Virus record (IMG/VR): IMGVR_UViG_3300008448_000737
Coordinates: 1 to 22,227 of that record
From: a virus
Reading direction: 5' to 3' (one strand)
DNA length: 22,227 bases
Position numbers and translations under genes: made by a program. The notes below the pieces were generated by a model that saw nothing but the letters and a program-made list of their open reading frames with translations, was not told where the DNA came from and ran no database searches. Shown piece after piece: positions 2,134 through 11,910 of the stretch; the stretch's first letter is position 1; the number at the start of each line of letters is the position of its first letter.

Positions 2134-2576
2134 AACTAAACAACGATGGATATCGATTAATCTCGAAGCACGAAGGATTCAGAAGTAAACCATATCTATG
2201 TCCAGCAAAAATAGCTACTATTGGATACGGAAACACTTACTATCCAGATGGAACACGAGTGACTCTTTTAGATAAAGAAATCACAGAACAACAAGCATTC
2301 GAGATGTTCAAAGAAATAGCAGATAGATTTGCAAAAAAGGTAAGCAGATTAGTCACTTCTCCTATAAACCAGAATCAATTCAATGCTTTGGTTTCTTTTT
2401 CGTACAATGTAGGTTTGGCTAATTTTATGAAGTCTACTTTATTAAAAAAGGTGAATGCTAATCATAACGATGCATCAATCACTAACGAATTTATGAAGTG
2501 GAATAAAGCTGGTGGAAAAGAATTAAGAGGTTTAACTTTAAGAAGAAAGGATGAAGCACTTGTTTATTTTAGTTAG
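2130..2576 (+). CDS. Endolysin, GH24 (T4/P22-type) lysozyme
   Basis: This 148-residue muramidase should cleave the beta-1,4 bond between N-acetylmuramic acid and N-acetylglucosamine in peptidoglycan. The catalytic pattern of the phage lysozyme family is plain: Glu15 in HEGF, Cys24 nine residues later in place of the T4 aspartate, and Thr30 in ATIGYG. This is the known E-8-(D/C)-5-T spacing. A mid-protein segment FNALVSFSYNVG and a C-terminal RGLTLRRKDE match the family's conserved helical part. The length is normal for a single-domain enzyme. No signal peptide or SAR segment is seen, so export should depend on the holin upstream. Its 3' end overlaps the spanin-like gene by 26 bases. Confidence 0.93.
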   Translation: MKLNNDGYRLISKHEGFRSKPYLCPAKIATIGYGNTYYPDGTRVTLLDKEITEQQAFEMFKEIADRFAKKVSRLVTSPINQNQFNALVSFSYNVGLANFMKSTLLKKVNANHNDASITNEFMKWNKAGGKELRGLTLRRKDEALVYFS

Positions 2577-3018
2577 TCTGGTTTTCTTGAGTTGTGCATC
2601 TCGAAAAGTAGATGTAGACATTAAGAAAAAAGACTCGACAACTGTTCAAATCACTAAAGAGATTACTACTAAAAAGACAGATTCTACTTCTAACAATTTA
2701 GTAATTGATAAAACAGAAACAGATGAATTGATTATTGTTCCAATTGATTCTACAAAAGAAATAGTAGTGAACGGAAAGAAGTATTTTAACGCAGTTTTAA
2801 AGTACAAAAAAGTAAGAAACAACACTTATAACAATAACAAGGTAAAAGTCTCTAAAATTGAAGATAAAGCAGTTAAAACTAATAATCGCACAACATTAAA
2901 AACTAAAAACAAAACAAAAAAAATAGAGACAAATAACACAATAATTTATATATCATTATTACTTCTATTCATTTTACTTCTTATCATTGGTAATAGATTA
3001 AGAAGAATATATTTTTAG
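2551..3018 (+). CDS. Probable unimolecular spanin (lipoprotein with C-terminal membrane anchor)
   Basis: The 155-residue protein begins with a lipoprotein signal: basic start, hydrophobic residues 4-13, and cysteine 15 in VFLSC. A Lys/Thr/Asn-rich body of about 115 residues (15-130) follows. It ends in a strong membrane helix at about 131-147 (IIYISLLLLFILLLIIG) with a basic tail RLRR. An outer-membrane lipid at one end and an inner-membrane helix at the other is the defining design of u-spanins such as phage T1 gp11, which join the two membranes at the last step of Gram-negative lysis. Its start is embedded in the 3' end of the endolysin gene, as Rz/Rz1 genes often are. The lipobox is relaxed (Phe at -3), which Bacteroidota tolerate. 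The function is inferred from topology and context. Confidence 0.7.
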   Translation: MKHLFILVSLVFLSCASRKVDVDIKKKDSTTVQITKEITTKKTDSTSNNLVIDKTETDELIIVPIDSTKEIVVNGKKYFNAVLKYKKVRNNTYNNNKVKVSKIEDKAVKTNNRTTLKTKNKTKKIETNNTIIYISLLLLFILLLIIGNRLRRIYF

Positions 3019-3204
3019 ACACTTACCACCCACCTATGTTATTTTAAATTTCAGAAATGCTGGTTGAGTTGAATGATTGTCGGGTGGCACGAAAATAACA
3101 AAGGATAAACAATCGCAATATTCAAGCAGTCTTATTTTATCTGTTCCAAGCACCTTCCATCTTTGTTAGGTTGTGCAAGTCTTCAACGCATTGGAGTGAC
3201 AAAG
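3019..3204. other. Gene-free block with dense long-range complementarity (candidate structured RNA or acquired repeat)
   Basis: No reading frame of useful length exists on either strand. By hand count the block is about 38% GC, against about 16% for the 95 bases after it. It contains CCACCC 3026-3031 pairing with GGGTGG 3082-3087; TGTTATTTT 3037-3045 pairing with AAAATAACA 3092-3100; and TTGAATGATTGT 3069-3080 pairing with 3109-3114 plus 3120-3125 (12 pairs, one five-base bulge). CTTTGT 3161-3166 can also pair with ACAAAG 3199-3204. The first two pairings cross in pseudoknot order, and the loops are long enough (5 and 4 nt) to allow it on the + strand. I cannot assign it to a known RNA class. 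It could also be a repeat picked up from a host chromosome. Confidence 0.45.
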
Positions 3205-3222
3205 TTAAAATAAAATTAACTT
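3202..3222. repeat. AT-rich inverted repeat followed by a T7 run
   Basis: AAGTTAA 3202-3208 and TTAACTT 3216-3222 form a 7-bp hairpin with a 7-base loop, and a run of seven T (3230-3236) follows seven bases later. With a single G-C pair and an offset T-run it would be a weak terminator at best for the lysis operon. It marks the boundary between the GC-richer block and the very AT-rich leader of the next gene. Confidence 0.35.
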
Positions 3223-3253
3223 AAGTATGTTTTTTTCTTATAAACATCTTGTA

Positions 3254-3285
3254 AATAAGTATAATTCATACCTAATAAGTATTAT
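3254..3285 (+). repeat. Imperfect direct repeat, possible operator pair
   Basis: AATAAGTATAAT at 3254-3265 recurs as AATAAGTATTAT at 3274-3285 (11 of 12 bases), with starts exactly 20 bases apart, close to two helical turns. A third AAGTAT is at 3223-3228. The pair lies just upstream of the NinG-like gene in a stretch of about 16% GC. The spacing suits two protein sites on one DNA face, but AT-rich DNA makes chance repeats likely. Confidence 0.3.
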
Positions 3286-3299
3286 TCGTAAATTTGAAA

Positions 3300-3680
3300 A
3301 TGAAATCCAAGAAACCAAAGAGCAAACTAATAAAAGAACTGGATATCTTGTTTAGTCAGTTTATTAGATTGTCTAATAGTATAGATGGATTTTGTAGTTG
3401 CGTGACTTGTGGCAGAGTCTACGAATGGAAAAAGATCCAAGCTGGTCACTTCATTTCAAGACAACACTATTCAGTAAGATGGGATGAAAGAAACGTAAAG
3501 CCACAATGTTATGGTTGCAACGTGATGCAACAAGGAAGGCAGTATGAGTTCAGCAAGTATCTTGGTCAAGAGTTGTCAGAAGAATTGTATCTCTTGTCTA
3601 AACAAACAAGAAAGATCTCCGAGATTGAACTTCAAGAAATGATAGAACATTATAAAAATAAGATTGTCAGTTTTTCATAA
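3300..3680 (+). CDS. ninG: NinG/Rap-like recombination protein
   Basis: The product is 126 residues from ATG 3300 (a TTG six bases earlier is in frame). It carries the NinG pattern: a cysteine cluster C32-x-C34-xx-C37 (CSCVTC), then the core QAGHFISRQH (about 47-56) and RWDERNVKPQC with C70-xx-C73 (YGCN). The cysteines and histidines should bind zinc, making an HNH-like fold. In lambda, NinG (Rap) is a Holliday-junction/D-loop endonuclease of phage recombination, and I infer the same type of role. The protein is shorter than lambda NinG, but many phage members are about this size. It is a single-gene unit between the structured block and a strong terminator, separate from the ERF and exonuclease genes it probably works with. 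Confidence 0.85.
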   Translation: MKSKKPKSKLIKELDILFSQFIRLSNSIDGFCSCVTCGRVYEWKKIQAGHFISRQHYSVRWDERNVKPQCYGCNVMQQGRQYEFSKYLGQELSEELYLLSKQTRKISEIELQEMIEHYKNKIVSFS

Positions 3681-3698: not shown

Positions 3699-3732
3699 AA
3701 AATGGGTGGATTAAGGTCTACCCATTTTTTTT
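3699..3732 (+). terminator. Rho-independent terminator after the NinG-like gene
   Basis: AAAATGGGT 3699-3707 and ACCCATTTT 3720-3728 form a 9-bp stem with a 12-base loop, running into a T tract that ends at 3733. The reverse complement also has a stem and a T-run (from the leading A residues), so weak bidirectional function is possible. It separates the NinG-like gene from promoter P1 immediately downstream. Confidence 0.85.
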
Positions 3733-5054: not shown

Positions 5055-5990
5055 ATGACAACAAATCTTATAGACATTCAGAAAAAGATACTCGATGTGA
5101 AGTATGGAAGAGTCAAAGAAGGACTCAAACTTGACATCGATGAGATAGATGAATTCATTCGCTTTAAACCTGCGAACTTCAATGTTATAATCGGTCACGC
5201 AAATGTGGGTAAGACAACAGTCATCCTATATCTGATGACTCTTTACACGATTAAGCACAACGTGAAGTGGTTGATTTTCTCCAGCGAGAATACTGACTAT
5301 TCGATGGCACGAAAAATCCTTGAATTTAAAAAAGGTAAACCTATTCAGAAAATGGCAGATGATGAAATCGAGTACGGACTTGCTTGGGTTTTTCAGAACT
5401 TCAGAATCATTAATGTGGATAAAGTCTACACCTACAAGACTCTAATGGCAGAAGCGAAAGAAATCAAGCAAACATTCGACTACAAAGGATTCTTAATTGA
5501 CCCATACAATTCACTTGCTAAAGACAAAGAGCTTATAAAATCAGTAGGCAGTCACGAATATGACTATGAAGTATCAAGCGATATGAGACTCTTCTGTAAA
5601 GAGAATGATGTATCTATTTGGTTGAACACTCACGCAGTTACAGAAGCATTAAGAAGAGTTCATCCAAAGTACGAAGACAAGAAAGAACAACATAAGTTTG
5701 CTGGACTGCCTATCCCACCAAATATGGCAGATGTCGAAGGTGGTGGTAAATGGGGCAATAGAGCAGACGATGTGATTACTATTCATAGATACACCCAGCA
5801 TTCACTTGACTGGATGTATTCGGAGTTGCACGTTAGAAAAGTCAAAGAAGTAGAGACTGGTGGCAGACCAACACCTATTGATAATCCTATTCGATTACGA
5901 ATGAAACAAGACAATGTTGGATTTCTTCTTAATGGAGAAGACATTATTATCAACGAATCTGTTAATAAAATAAATCTATCTCCTTTTTAA
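5055..5990 (+). CDS. DnaB-type replicative helicase / RecA-fold ATPase
   Basis: The product is 311 residues from ATG 5055 (an upstream in-frame GTG at 5019 would lie inside the terminator). It is the C-terminal ATPase half of a DnaB-family helicase: Walker A GHANVGKTT at 47-55, the following IFSSENT at 74-80 (the SxE motif of DnaB enzymes), and Walker B GFLIDPYNSL at 145-154. WLNTHA at 189-194 is the sensor-like motif, and NRADDV with a later RMKQDNVGF is the arginine-rich C-terminus. The N-terminal domain and any primase domain are absent, as in many small phage helicases. It should unwind DNA at the phage fork. A shorter recombination ATPase role is the alternative. It follows an attenuator-like terminator. 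Confidence 0.82.
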   Translation: MTTNLIDIQKKILDVKYGRVKEGLKLDIDEIDEFIRFKPANFNVIIGHANVGKTTVILYLMTLYTIKHNVKWLIFSSENTDYSMARKILEFKKGKPIQKMADDEIEYGLAWVFQNFRIINVDKVYTYKTLMAEAKEIKQTFDYKGFLIDPYNSLAKDKELIKSVGSHEYDYEVSSDMRLFCKENDVSIWLNTHAVTEALRRVHPKYEDKKEQHKFAGLPIPPNMADVEGGGKWGNRADDVITIHRYTQHSLDWMYSELHVRKVKEVETGGRPTPIDNPIRLRMKQDNVGFLLNGEDIIINESVNKINLSPF

Positions 5991-9422: not shown

Positions 9423-9579
9423 CCAGTTGAACTTGCTTTACGATTTAGCAAGATATCAAGAAAATGTCTTTATGGCTAACAAGTTGCTGGAGATTCGCCA
9501 ATCATTAGCAGACTTATGGATAAAAGAAGAATACTACTACGAACAGATTAGAAAAACATTAAGCAATGAAGACAGTTAA
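9400..9579 (+). CDS. Small helical protein, 59 aa
   Basis: ATG 9400 lies in the preceding ORF and the stop lies 14 bases into the PP-loop gene. The 59 residues (MEKQNILDQLNLLYDL) form a helical hairpin-like pattern with aromatic residues (LYDLARYQENVF, WIKEEYYYEQI). There is no cysteine and no membrane segment. Not recognised. Coupled translation with the PP-loop enzyme suggests it may be a partner of it. Confidence 0.6.
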   Translation: MEKQNILDQLNLLYDLARYQENVFMANKLLEIRQSLADLWIKEEYYYEQIRKTLSNEDS

Positions 9580-10414
9580 TAGTATTTCTGGTGGACAAAC
9601 TTCTGCGTATATTGCTGCAAATTACCCAGCAGATTACAATGTTTTTGCTTTAGTGACTACTGATGACATTAAATGTCAGTATCCAGATGCAAAAGTTAGG
9701 CAAATGGTAAGCGATAAGATAGGCAGAGAGTTTATTGGAACATTAGAAGACGATGTTATAATTCAGACTATTTTAGAACTCGAACAATTTATAGGCAGTG
9801 AAATAGTTTGGTTATCACCTAAAACTTTTGATTCGGTAATTGATTCTTATAAGATGCAAAATGGCAAATCTTTTTTGCCTAATCAAATGATGAGATATTG
9901 TACTGTTGATATGAAGGTTAAACCAATCGCACAATGGTGTTATGACAATACTGATTTACCTATTGAGATGCGAATCGGATTTCGTGCTAATGAAATTAAA
10001 AGAGCTAATAAAATGATTGAAAGAAATCTAAACGGCTACGAATCTTTTAAATTTAAAGTAGGAGAGAAAAATGGTAGAAATGTATGGAAAACTTTACCAT
10101 ATCGAAATGTTAAATTTCCATTGATAGAGGATAATATTTATAAGGATACTATTGTCGAATATTGGAAAGATAAACCAGTTAAATTTGCTTACAAAAACAA
10201 TTGTGTTGGATGCTTTCACAGAAACGAAATGTTTCTAAAACATATTTCTGAAAAAAGTCCAAAGCAGTTGAATTGGTTTGTTGAGCAAGAAAAGAAAAAT
10301 AATTCAACTTTTAAGAAAGGAATAACGTACGAAAAAATAAAAAATTATAACTTGCAACACGATTTGTTTGATTCAGATTTCAACGATTGTGATACTGGGT
10401 ATTGTGGACTTTAA
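9566..10414 (+). CDS. PAPS-reductase-like PP-loop (adenine nucleotide alpha hydrolase) protein
   Basis: The 282-residue protein opens with a strand and SGGQTSA at 8-14, the PP-loop that binds ATP in the PAPS reductase/ThiI/TtcA/DndC superfamily. RYCTVDMKVKPI (110-121) is the family's R-x-C-T...K-P motif. CVGC at 213-216 with Cys112 and the last residues C275 and C280 could hold an iron-sulfur cluster or the catalytic cysteines. Enzymes of this group activate a substrate by adenylation or move sulfur; phage members are common but few have a proven substrate. Options are tRNA or DNA thiolation, nucleotide modification, or sulfate-type metabolism. A true PAPS reductase is less likely with this extra cysteine set. 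It has more T-rich codons than its neighbours (TTT, GTT), hinting at separate acquisition. Confidence 0.8.
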   Translation: MKTVNSISGGQTSAYIAANYPADYNVFALVTTDDIKCQYPDAKVRQMVSDKIGREFIGTLEDDVIIQTILELEQFIGSEIVWLSPKTFDSVIDSYKMQNGKSFLPNQMMRYCTVDMKVKPIAQWCYDNTDLPIEMRIGFRANEIKRANKMIERNLNGYESFKFKVGEKNGRNVWKTLPYRNVKFPLIEDNIYKDTIVEYWKDKPVKFAYKNNCVGCFHRNEMFLKHISEKSPKQLNWFVEQEKKNNSTFKKGITYEKIKNYNLQHDLFDSDFNDCDTGYCGL

Positions 10415-11193: not shown

Positions 11194-11411
11194 CAGATAA
11201 AGCAATAGAATTCTATAATATCACCATCTTTGATATGATGAATGGTACTTCAATAGAAGACATCGAAATGATTCTAAAGGACTACGAAGAAGAAGAAGAG
11301 TTCGAGATTTGTCAAGGCATTTACGCAGCATTAGAGATGGTGAAATATAATATTGATTTCAGACTTATAGATAAAAAAAACTTAAATAAAATAACATATG
11401 ACAACGATTAA
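11190..11411 (+). CDS. Small acidic protein, 73 aa
   Basis: It starts at an ATGA overlap with the exonuclease and overlaps the DnaA-like gene by 14 bases. The 73 residues (MTDKAIEFYNITIFDM) are strongly acidic, with DYEEEEEFEIC near the centre, and mostly helical; the tail is Lys/Asn-rich. A very acidic small protein next to nuclease and DNA-binding genes could be a DNA mimic or an enzyme regulator, but no known inhibitor is recognised. Confidence 0.68.
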   Translation: MTDKAIEFYNITIFDMMNGTSIEDIEMILKDYEEEEEFEICQGIYAALEMVKYNIDFRLIDKKNLNKITYDND

Positions 11412-11910
11412 CGACTACATTAAGAAGAGAATTAAAGACATTGCAGACATCAATGTGAACAAAGATACCAGACAACGAGAGATAGTTGAATATAGAGCTT
11501 TATATTGCTTTCTGATAAGGAAGTACACGAATCAATCACTACCACAAATTGCTAAAACTTTGAAAAGAAATCACGCAACAATCATTCACTCACTTAAATG
11601 TTTTGAAATGTACGAAAGATACAACGAGAAGTTAAGAACTGCCAGAACAGTTATCGAAGATGAACTCGTTAATAAGACAGAATTCACCATTTCCAGTAAG
11701 ACACTATCTCAAGAATTACTATCTTTAAATTACGAATTAAGAGAAGAGATAAAAAGACTAAAGAAGTTAGAGAAATATCTTAACACTCCGACATTCATTT
11801 CTAACTTAATCGATAACTACGAAAATTTAAATAATTTTGAAAGAGTCCAAGTCAAAGAATCCATCGAATCAATTACATCCAGATACCAAGTTGAAGATTG
11901 TAGCAGTTAA
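11398..11910 (+). CDS. DnaA domain IV-like DNA-binding protein
   Basis: The 170-residue protein has, at about residues 24-70, a segment close to the DnaA C-terminal domain: REIVEYRALYCFLIRKYTNQSL, then PQIAKTLKRNHATIIHSLKC. The last part corresponds to the DnaA signature G-R-D-H-[ST]-T-V-x-H, which contacts the DnaA box; here it reads KRNHATIIH. The AAA+ domain is missing. Residues 100-150 are a coiled coil (LSLNYELREEIKRLKK). A free DnaA-IV domain with a coiled coil suggests a dimeric phage factor that binds origin-like sites for initiation, or that competes with host DnaA. The start is ATG 11398. Confidence 0.72.
   Translation: MTTINDYIKKRIKDIADINVNKDTRQREIVEYRALYCFLIRKYTNQSLPQIAKTLKRNHATIIHSLKCFEMYERYNEKLRTARTVIEDELVNKTEFTISSKTLSQELLSLNYELREEIKRLKKLEKYLNTPTFISNLIDNYENLNNFERVQVKESIESITSRYQVEDCSS

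Follow-up and report, generated by a model that had tools for sequence, protein, structure and literature searches.

A candidate minus-strand RNA gene beside ninG represents an uncatalogued phage RNA family with an exchangeable 3' module

The put RNA of phage HK022 is reportedly a small antiterminator RNA of two hairpins located at an early promoter, where it suppresses downstream termination in cis, and lambda OOP and the RNA anti-CRISPRs are likewise said to be short phage RNAs with promoters of their own. Transcript-primed replication origins in which the RNA is anchored have ColE1, T4 and the mitochondrial CSB II as models, and mirror repeats are the textbook sequence of H-DNA. An intrastrand triplex motif has been reported in E. 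coli, where it shows no association with phages (PMC4666352). RNAs with the ABCABC order of pairing have been named pseudotrefoils, 51 of them standing against 1688 of ABAB order in the table of PMC3390330, and Flavobacterium promoters carry the box TAnnTTTG at -12 to -5 (PMC9723704).

The element described here shares features with several of these systems. It lies in the window, the whole stretch of 22,227 bases analysed, which comes from an uncultivated virus record. Like the put RNA, it is predicted to be a small two-hairpin RNA at an early promoter, its position fitting in one orientation only; unlike put, it is present in single copy, has no Rfam match and, in one clade, would lead a transcript running in the antisense direction. 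With lambda OOP and the RNA anti-CRISPRs it shares its short length and its own promoter, the RNA of the window being directed opposite to the neighbouring genes; unlike them, no antisense target was found for it in the phages and its conserved domain, M1, occurred in 0 of 249 host-family genomes. Most relatives, but not the window, carry a homopyrimidine mirror repeat whose centre is short, as in H-DNA and the intrastrand triplex motifs of PMC4666352; unlike those motifs, it comes joined to a structured RNA gene and is pyrimidine on the RNA strand. The 3' module of the window has the topology of the pseudotrefoils of PMC3390330; unlike them, and with no sequence relation to them known, it stands behind M1 and is exchangeable. 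No description of such an element was found in the open-licence literature, including the accessible parts of PMC3390330, PMC4666352, PMC9723704 and PMC10309648. Phage small RNAs are already known as a broad kind, and it is the family and its module exchange that are new.

The block between the spanin-like gene and ninG

An earlier note on this DNA had singled out positions 3019-3204 as a gene-free block of raised GC content, and both observations were borne out: GC is 38.2% in the block against 17.6% (2900-3018) and 15.6% (3205-3300) in its flanks, and neither strand carries an open reading frame of 40 aa or more. No tRNA was detected in the block, and nested folding of the window alone was not better than that of shuffles (z 0.24 on the plus and 1.00 on the minus strand). 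Conservation of the block first became apparent from NinG and endolysin relatives in IMG/VR. A small protein gene on the minus strand was considered and rejected, the frame that is open in the relative L006 (MRPRLAEPNK...) being interrupted by TGA in the window, by TGA and TAA in L187, and displaced by one base in both L186 and L191.

On its late side, the block is flanked by an open reading frame (2551-3018, plus strand) taken for a spanin-like lipoprotein gene, a label that is the note's own, the sole family match being phrog_5885, of unknown function. On its early side lies ninG (3300-3680, plus strand; PF05766, phrog_5034), encoding a Rap/NinG junction endonuclease, with its ATG at 3300 in a frame open from TTG 3294. 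Two 17-nt direct repeats (3254-3270 and 3274-3290; 88% alike, 20 nt apart) resemble an operator and are placed between the promoter of the RNA and that of ninG, and directly after ninG (~3700-3731) a hairpin followed by a T-run has, by eye, the look of an intrinsic terminator. Elsewhere in the window lie a gene for a phage protein that includes the C-terminal, DNA-binding domain of DnaA (11398-11910, PF08299) and a PAPS-reductase-like gene (9566-10414, phrog_424); the one strict DnaA box, at 5422, is unrelated to the element.

A TAnnTTTG box, TAACTTTG, is found on the minus strand at 3200-3207, as a -7 promoter box, and it recurs upstream of M1 in the relatives: 74 of the 93 distinct elements had it within 45 nt upstream of M1 on the RNA strand, compared with a background, for same-orientation elements, of 1 in 72 over the 95 nt that begin 55 nt after the core start. 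Since the box spans -12 to -5 in Flavobacterium, transcription of the window RNA would be expected to start at about 3195 on the minus strand, just ahead of the first hairpin of M1. Moreover, the G-U cells in the M1 alignment would become A-C on the opposite strand, so that the fold belongs to the strand of the promoter; a plus-strand RNA is disfavoured by both the G-U polarity and the box. On these sequence features, the block is very probably an RNA gene on the minus strand. The earlier note had counted an RNA among its possibilities, correctly, but had missed the minus strand, the promoter box and the fact that 3141-3193 is the most conserved part; what it had observed stands, and its interpretation is supported in part only.

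M1 and the extent of the family

M1, the near-invariant 5' domain of the predicted RNA, covers 3193-3141 (minus strand) and includes hairpin H1 (3184-3193, CAA-TGCG-TTG) and a core domain with hairpin H2 (3141-3180). Both hairpins were proposed by RNAalifold from 13 rows, and two of the three pairs of H1 changed among these rows while forming in all 13, one as C-G in seven and G-C in six, the other as A-U in seven and G-C in six. H1 is different in other clades (GCT-NNN-AGC, TATAC-AAAC-GTATA and others) and in some none is evident, 2 of the 93 elements being left unparsed in this comparison. In alignment A4, which holds 52 of the 68 distinct references, seven pairs of M1 were standard in all 52 distinct rows (364 of 364 pair cells). 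Pair 3173:3153 (columns 8 and 29) was formed in every row, as C-G in 21, A-U in 13, G-C in 10 and U-A in 8, and pair 3176:3150 (columns 5 and 32) was G-C in 36, G-U in 11 and A-U in 5. The covariation score of M1 was 0.295, compared with 0.094 when shuffled and at most 0.064 with slid partners, and shuffled 3' letters equalled the paired percentage or the covariation score in none of 500 trials. Two further measures stayed at the level of the shuffles (pairs changed on both sides, 2 versus 1.8; further pair types, 5 versus 6.4), as variation is confined to two of the seven pairs. Traced over a tree of NinG from 86 rows, the variable M1 pair underwent at least 24 changes, although it should be considered that the columns of this tree are few and many of its forks open, and that recombination of the element would inflate the change counts. 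These compensatory base-pair changes are those of a structured RNA, as opposed to conservation of sequence only, and the covariation check proposed for the element thus gave a positive answer: its homologues keep the pairing through sequence change, both in M1 and in the 3' module.

Searches with nhmmer gave 12 loci, of which L006 has a near-full block, L102 most of it and the others about 3128-3213 or less. A core pattern matched 20 stretches and a shorter one 30, 22 of them true by sequence, and two relaxed patterns, built on different halves of the core, matched at least 119 stretches each, largely at common loci. By regular expression, the M1 family was found to comprise at least 146 locus records and at least 93 distinct 120-nt elements, a record count from which L001 and L266-L284 had been removed as repeats and in which some contigs are still counted twice. 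M1 occurred once per record in all 146, and wherever the locus includes ninG the element is less than 500 nt from it. One M1 copy, at L369:1765-1815 in a 95-kb record, has no ninG nearby, no promoter box and no pyrimidine tract.

A model of the element, R1, scored 71.6 bits for the window and 75.1 bits for L320, both being training rows, and no higher than 17.9 bits in 98 other sources. DNA searches of named phages and plasmids returned short chance matches or none, the low-complexity filter possibly hiding the pyrimidine part; the Nonlabens phage P12024L, among the nearest named phages by terminase, had no R1 match, and NinG proteins of named phages reached about 35% identity at most among the 12 of 64 records listed. 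An 18-base pattern of the window's 3' module matched 65 stretches, nearly all by chance, and a window-specific 20-mer matched none. Rfam 15 gave no match above the gathering cut-off for the window and 10 family loci (87,127 bases), in keeping with the remark that the block could not be placed in any known class, and a relaxed Rfam search of 2900-3350 gave three chance matches (E 1.2-5.3). The element very probably represents a previously uncatalogued phage RNA family, whose carriers are numerous among the viruses that infect marine and freshwater bacteria. The suggestion that it might be a repeat carried in from a host chromosome did not hold: a relaxed M1 pattern was found in 0 of 249 Flavobacteriaceae genomes and a stricter one in 1 of 397, with 3 mismatches, the control likewise giving 1. 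Together with the finding of a tyrosine integrase in 0 of 6 carrier records, this led us to reject a host repeat or an attB/attP site.

Exchangeable 3' modules

The 3' module of the window (3129-3026, minus strand) is predicted to consist of three helices. Helix A joins 3108-3129 to 3060-3081, P2 joins TGTTATTTT (3092-3100) to AAAATAACA (3037-3045) and P1 joins CCACCC (3082-3087) to GGGTGG (3026-3031), the 5' strand being given first in each case. The three pairings had been noticed on the plus strand, where CCACCC (3026-3031) with GGGTGG (3082-3087) crosses TGTTATTTT (3037-3045) with AAAATAACA (3092-3100), and the loops between these crossing helices are indeed of 5 and 4 nt. The bulged duplex described as the third pairing is real; it belongs to a longer helix of slightly different register, in which 3060-3081 pairs with 3108-3129. 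It had been held to be necessarily an alternative state; since the three helices share no nucleotide, such a state is possible and not required, and all three helices are kept in relatives.

Helix A has an architecture common to the window, L006, L102, L196 and L362, and its register is kept on the minus strand (CTG.TTGA...TTG.GATTGTT / GACAATC...CAA.TCAA.CAG, 17 pairs). Its elements are, in order, CTG/CAG, CAG/CTG or CTC/GAG; TTGA/TCAA, TAAG/CTTA or ATTA/TAAT; TTG/CAA; and an end helix whose sequence differs between rows. Its energy was equalled by 7, 17, 18 and 8 of 500 shuffles in the window, L006, L102 and L196, respectively, and by 12 of 1000 in L362. P2 is replaced by TTTAGATTT in L006 and by ACAAATTT in L102 and L196, with matching partners, and P1 differs between L102 (CGCCAA/TTGGCG) and L196 (CACCAA/TTGGTG) by one compensatory change. 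The crossing of P2 and P1 was equalled by 1, 0, 18 and 1 of 5000 shuffles (window, L006, L102 and L196); such a crossing pair is rare by chance in the window, and it is the relatives that settle its reality. In the same four sequences, the best partner of each row's loop was the tail of that row. Judged from these alignments, the predicted A-B-C-A'-B'-C' pairing survives total sequence change, the three mutually crossing helices being kept in the window, L006, L102 and L196 in a sample of five sequences, two of which are close to each other and one of which, L362, was scored for helix A alone, being cut by a contig end. The pseudoknot claimed for this block is in this way backed by covariation.

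Most relatives carry a different module: in 80 of the 89 scorable elements it consists of a tract that is homopyrimidine when read on the RNA strand (only this strand was considered, and 4 of the 93 elements were too short and were excluded). The nine tract-free elements contain no long purine tract except for G-runs in three of them: three have G6-7 TAA G6-7, five have the three-helix knot and L369 has neither. On paper, the G6-7 TAA G6-7 motifs and C-runs of L343, L402 and L403 could give strong hairpins or G-quartets. Perfect mirror repeats, their arms 18-27 long and their centre mostly of 4 nt, were present in 48 of the 78 relatives scored, whereas 30 shuffles per tested region gave arms of 11 at most; no H-DNA mirror repeat was found in the window, whose longest mirror is 10. 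Among 31 distinct pairs, the mirror arms were 94.0% identical within elements and 72.2% between them, and the value within elements was reached in 0 of 5000 permutations (maximum 79.1%). Matching non-pyrimidines were seen in both arms, A in L292 and L293 and G in L309 and L389, and such symmetric changes give no canonical triads, unlike those of an H-DNA triplex. Contrary to a strict mirror rule, several elements (for instance L317, L336, L313 and L194) have a G or A in one arm only. No consistent second target of the pyrimidine arms was found elsewhere in the genome.

The modules have been exchanged between close relatives. L005 (pyrimidine) and L006 (knot) have NinG proteins 98.3% identical despite their different modules, NinG is 90.3% identical between L096 and L102 despite a module exchange, and at least 5 changes of module type were counted on the NinG tree.

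Orientation and possible roles

The RNA is directed toward ninG in 69 elements and away from it in 18, the locus of the other 6 having no ninG, and orientation changed once on the NinG tree. In 17 of the 18 away-orientation phages, including the window (TAAATTTG, 3289-3296, plus strand, 11 nt before the ATG), the start codon of ninG is preceded at 11-13 nt by a TAnnTTTG box, compared with 0 of the 69 in the toward group; the position of the box implies that the ninG mRNA of these phages would be leaderless, or nearly so in the window. This separate ninG box, restricted to the away group, suggests that the element probably starts the early transcript in most phages and a separate transcript in the clade of the window. 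Eight records that were scanned are coding on one strand, with opposite-strand reading frames of no more than 372 bases, and their GC skew showed no switch at the element.

We propose that a sigma-A type promoter would drive a minus-strand transcript from about 3195, production of the RNA being itself inferred, and that its first ~60 nt (H1 and M1) would be the working part, forming two small hairpins in which loop and tail are almost invariant. The remainder would be the exchangeable 3' module (a knot here, a homopyrimidine mirror repeat in most relatives, G-runs in a few), which may make or protect the 3' end. For the element as an independent, accessory phage RNA gene acting through M1, most likely in trans, we see roughly even prospects on the sequence evidence, and slightly less than even ones for the narrower proposal of a trans-acting M1 with an accessory role in regulation or counter-defence, and not just that of a leader. 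The 18 away elements keep M1, 17 of them with a separate ninG box, which indicates that M1 is not tied to leading ninG. Against a role in trans, 69 of the 87 elements with ninG are probable 5' leaders of the early operon, for which a role in cis is natural; termination at the tract would, in the toward group, leave ninG silent unless there were read-through; and the fixed place beside ninG is needless for a freely trans-acting gene. As to targets, no conserved complement of M1 was found in the genomes of the phages, nor any host sequence like M1; in 10 phage records, complementary matches were near chance or above it (up to 35 versus 8.1 expected, in G006), with no shared site.

The accessory nature of the element is suggested by L011, which matches L005 at 96.1% identity across the 2575 nt that start at ninG and at 92.6% across 1313 nt on the side of the spanin-like gene, and which has a 162-aa GIY-YIG gene (L011:4480-4968) exactly at the site of the RNA element. 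M1 was not found in the 30.4-kb L011 record, which may be incomplete but contains the site itself. The presence of this site without the element favours an accessory role and disfavours an essential origin or packaging site. Nor was M1 found in 9 of the 11 other records searched, the two positives being known carriers, and by eye L007, L017, L018 and L034 resemble L011 in their GIY-YIG replacement.

Alternatively, the element could work in cis as a leader that forms the 5' end of the early transcript, a riboregulator or an antiterminator comparable to the put RNA, whose 3' module is the controlled pause or termination site. M1 starts at or right behind the predicted start, none of the ninG genes behind the 69 same-orientation elements has a box of its own within 60 nt, and only 1 of the 72 elements mentioned above has one 55-150 nt past the core start, all of which fit a leader. 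The away orientation of the window clade weakens this reading, since there the transcript leaves ninG and runs antisense to the late genes, 17 of 18 ninG genes have a box to themselves and M1 is equally conserved, and we consider a leader function rather unlikely.

A little more doubtful is a transcript-primed replication origin, in which the RNA would be the primer, M1 would recruit replication proteins and the 3' module would anchor the RNA in a triple helix or R-loop. The single copy per record, the constant site at the late/early junction beside recombination genes irrespective of orientation, the pyrimidine tracts that 80 of 89 elements carry on the RNA strand and the G6-7 TAA G6-7 motifs of L343, L402 and L403 are all consistent with an origin. 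What weakens it is L011, where the GIY-YIG gene replaces the element and both flanks are kept, together with the uniform GC skew of the eight records and the knot, which has no obvious anchoring role; pyrimidine RNA, besides, forms weak RNA-DNA hybrids. We regard as similarly doubtful an RNA clamp that would physically lock the transcript: the two mirror pyrimidine arms would close, in a triple helix, on the purine strand of the template from which they were made, the knot or the G-runs substituting for them in other phages. A DNA element (a packaging, recombination or attachment site), which the earlier note had also entertained and which the mirror repeats and the arm identities within elements would suit if their symmetry is read as that of DNA, is very improbable in view of the strand-specific G-U pairs, the promoter box, the absence of the element from a close relative, the lack of phage integrases in the 6 records and the lack of any host match.

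Whichever role an accessory RNA gene acting through M1 may have, a phage RNA so widespread and nearly invariant, and without catalogued relatives, suggests a function not yet recognised in the infection of Bacteroidetes, which are major bacteria of sea and lake water. As M1 is constant while the 3' module is swapped between a mirror repeat and a knot, either of which occurs with the same promoter and M1 in phages whose NinG proteins are 98% identical, the family offers a natural experiment on the function of such structures. The natural use of mirror repeats is an old question, which becomes testable in a short and defined element. If the clamp proposal were true, the family would provide a natural case of an RNA gene based on a mirror-repeat clamp, with arms co-evolving base for base.
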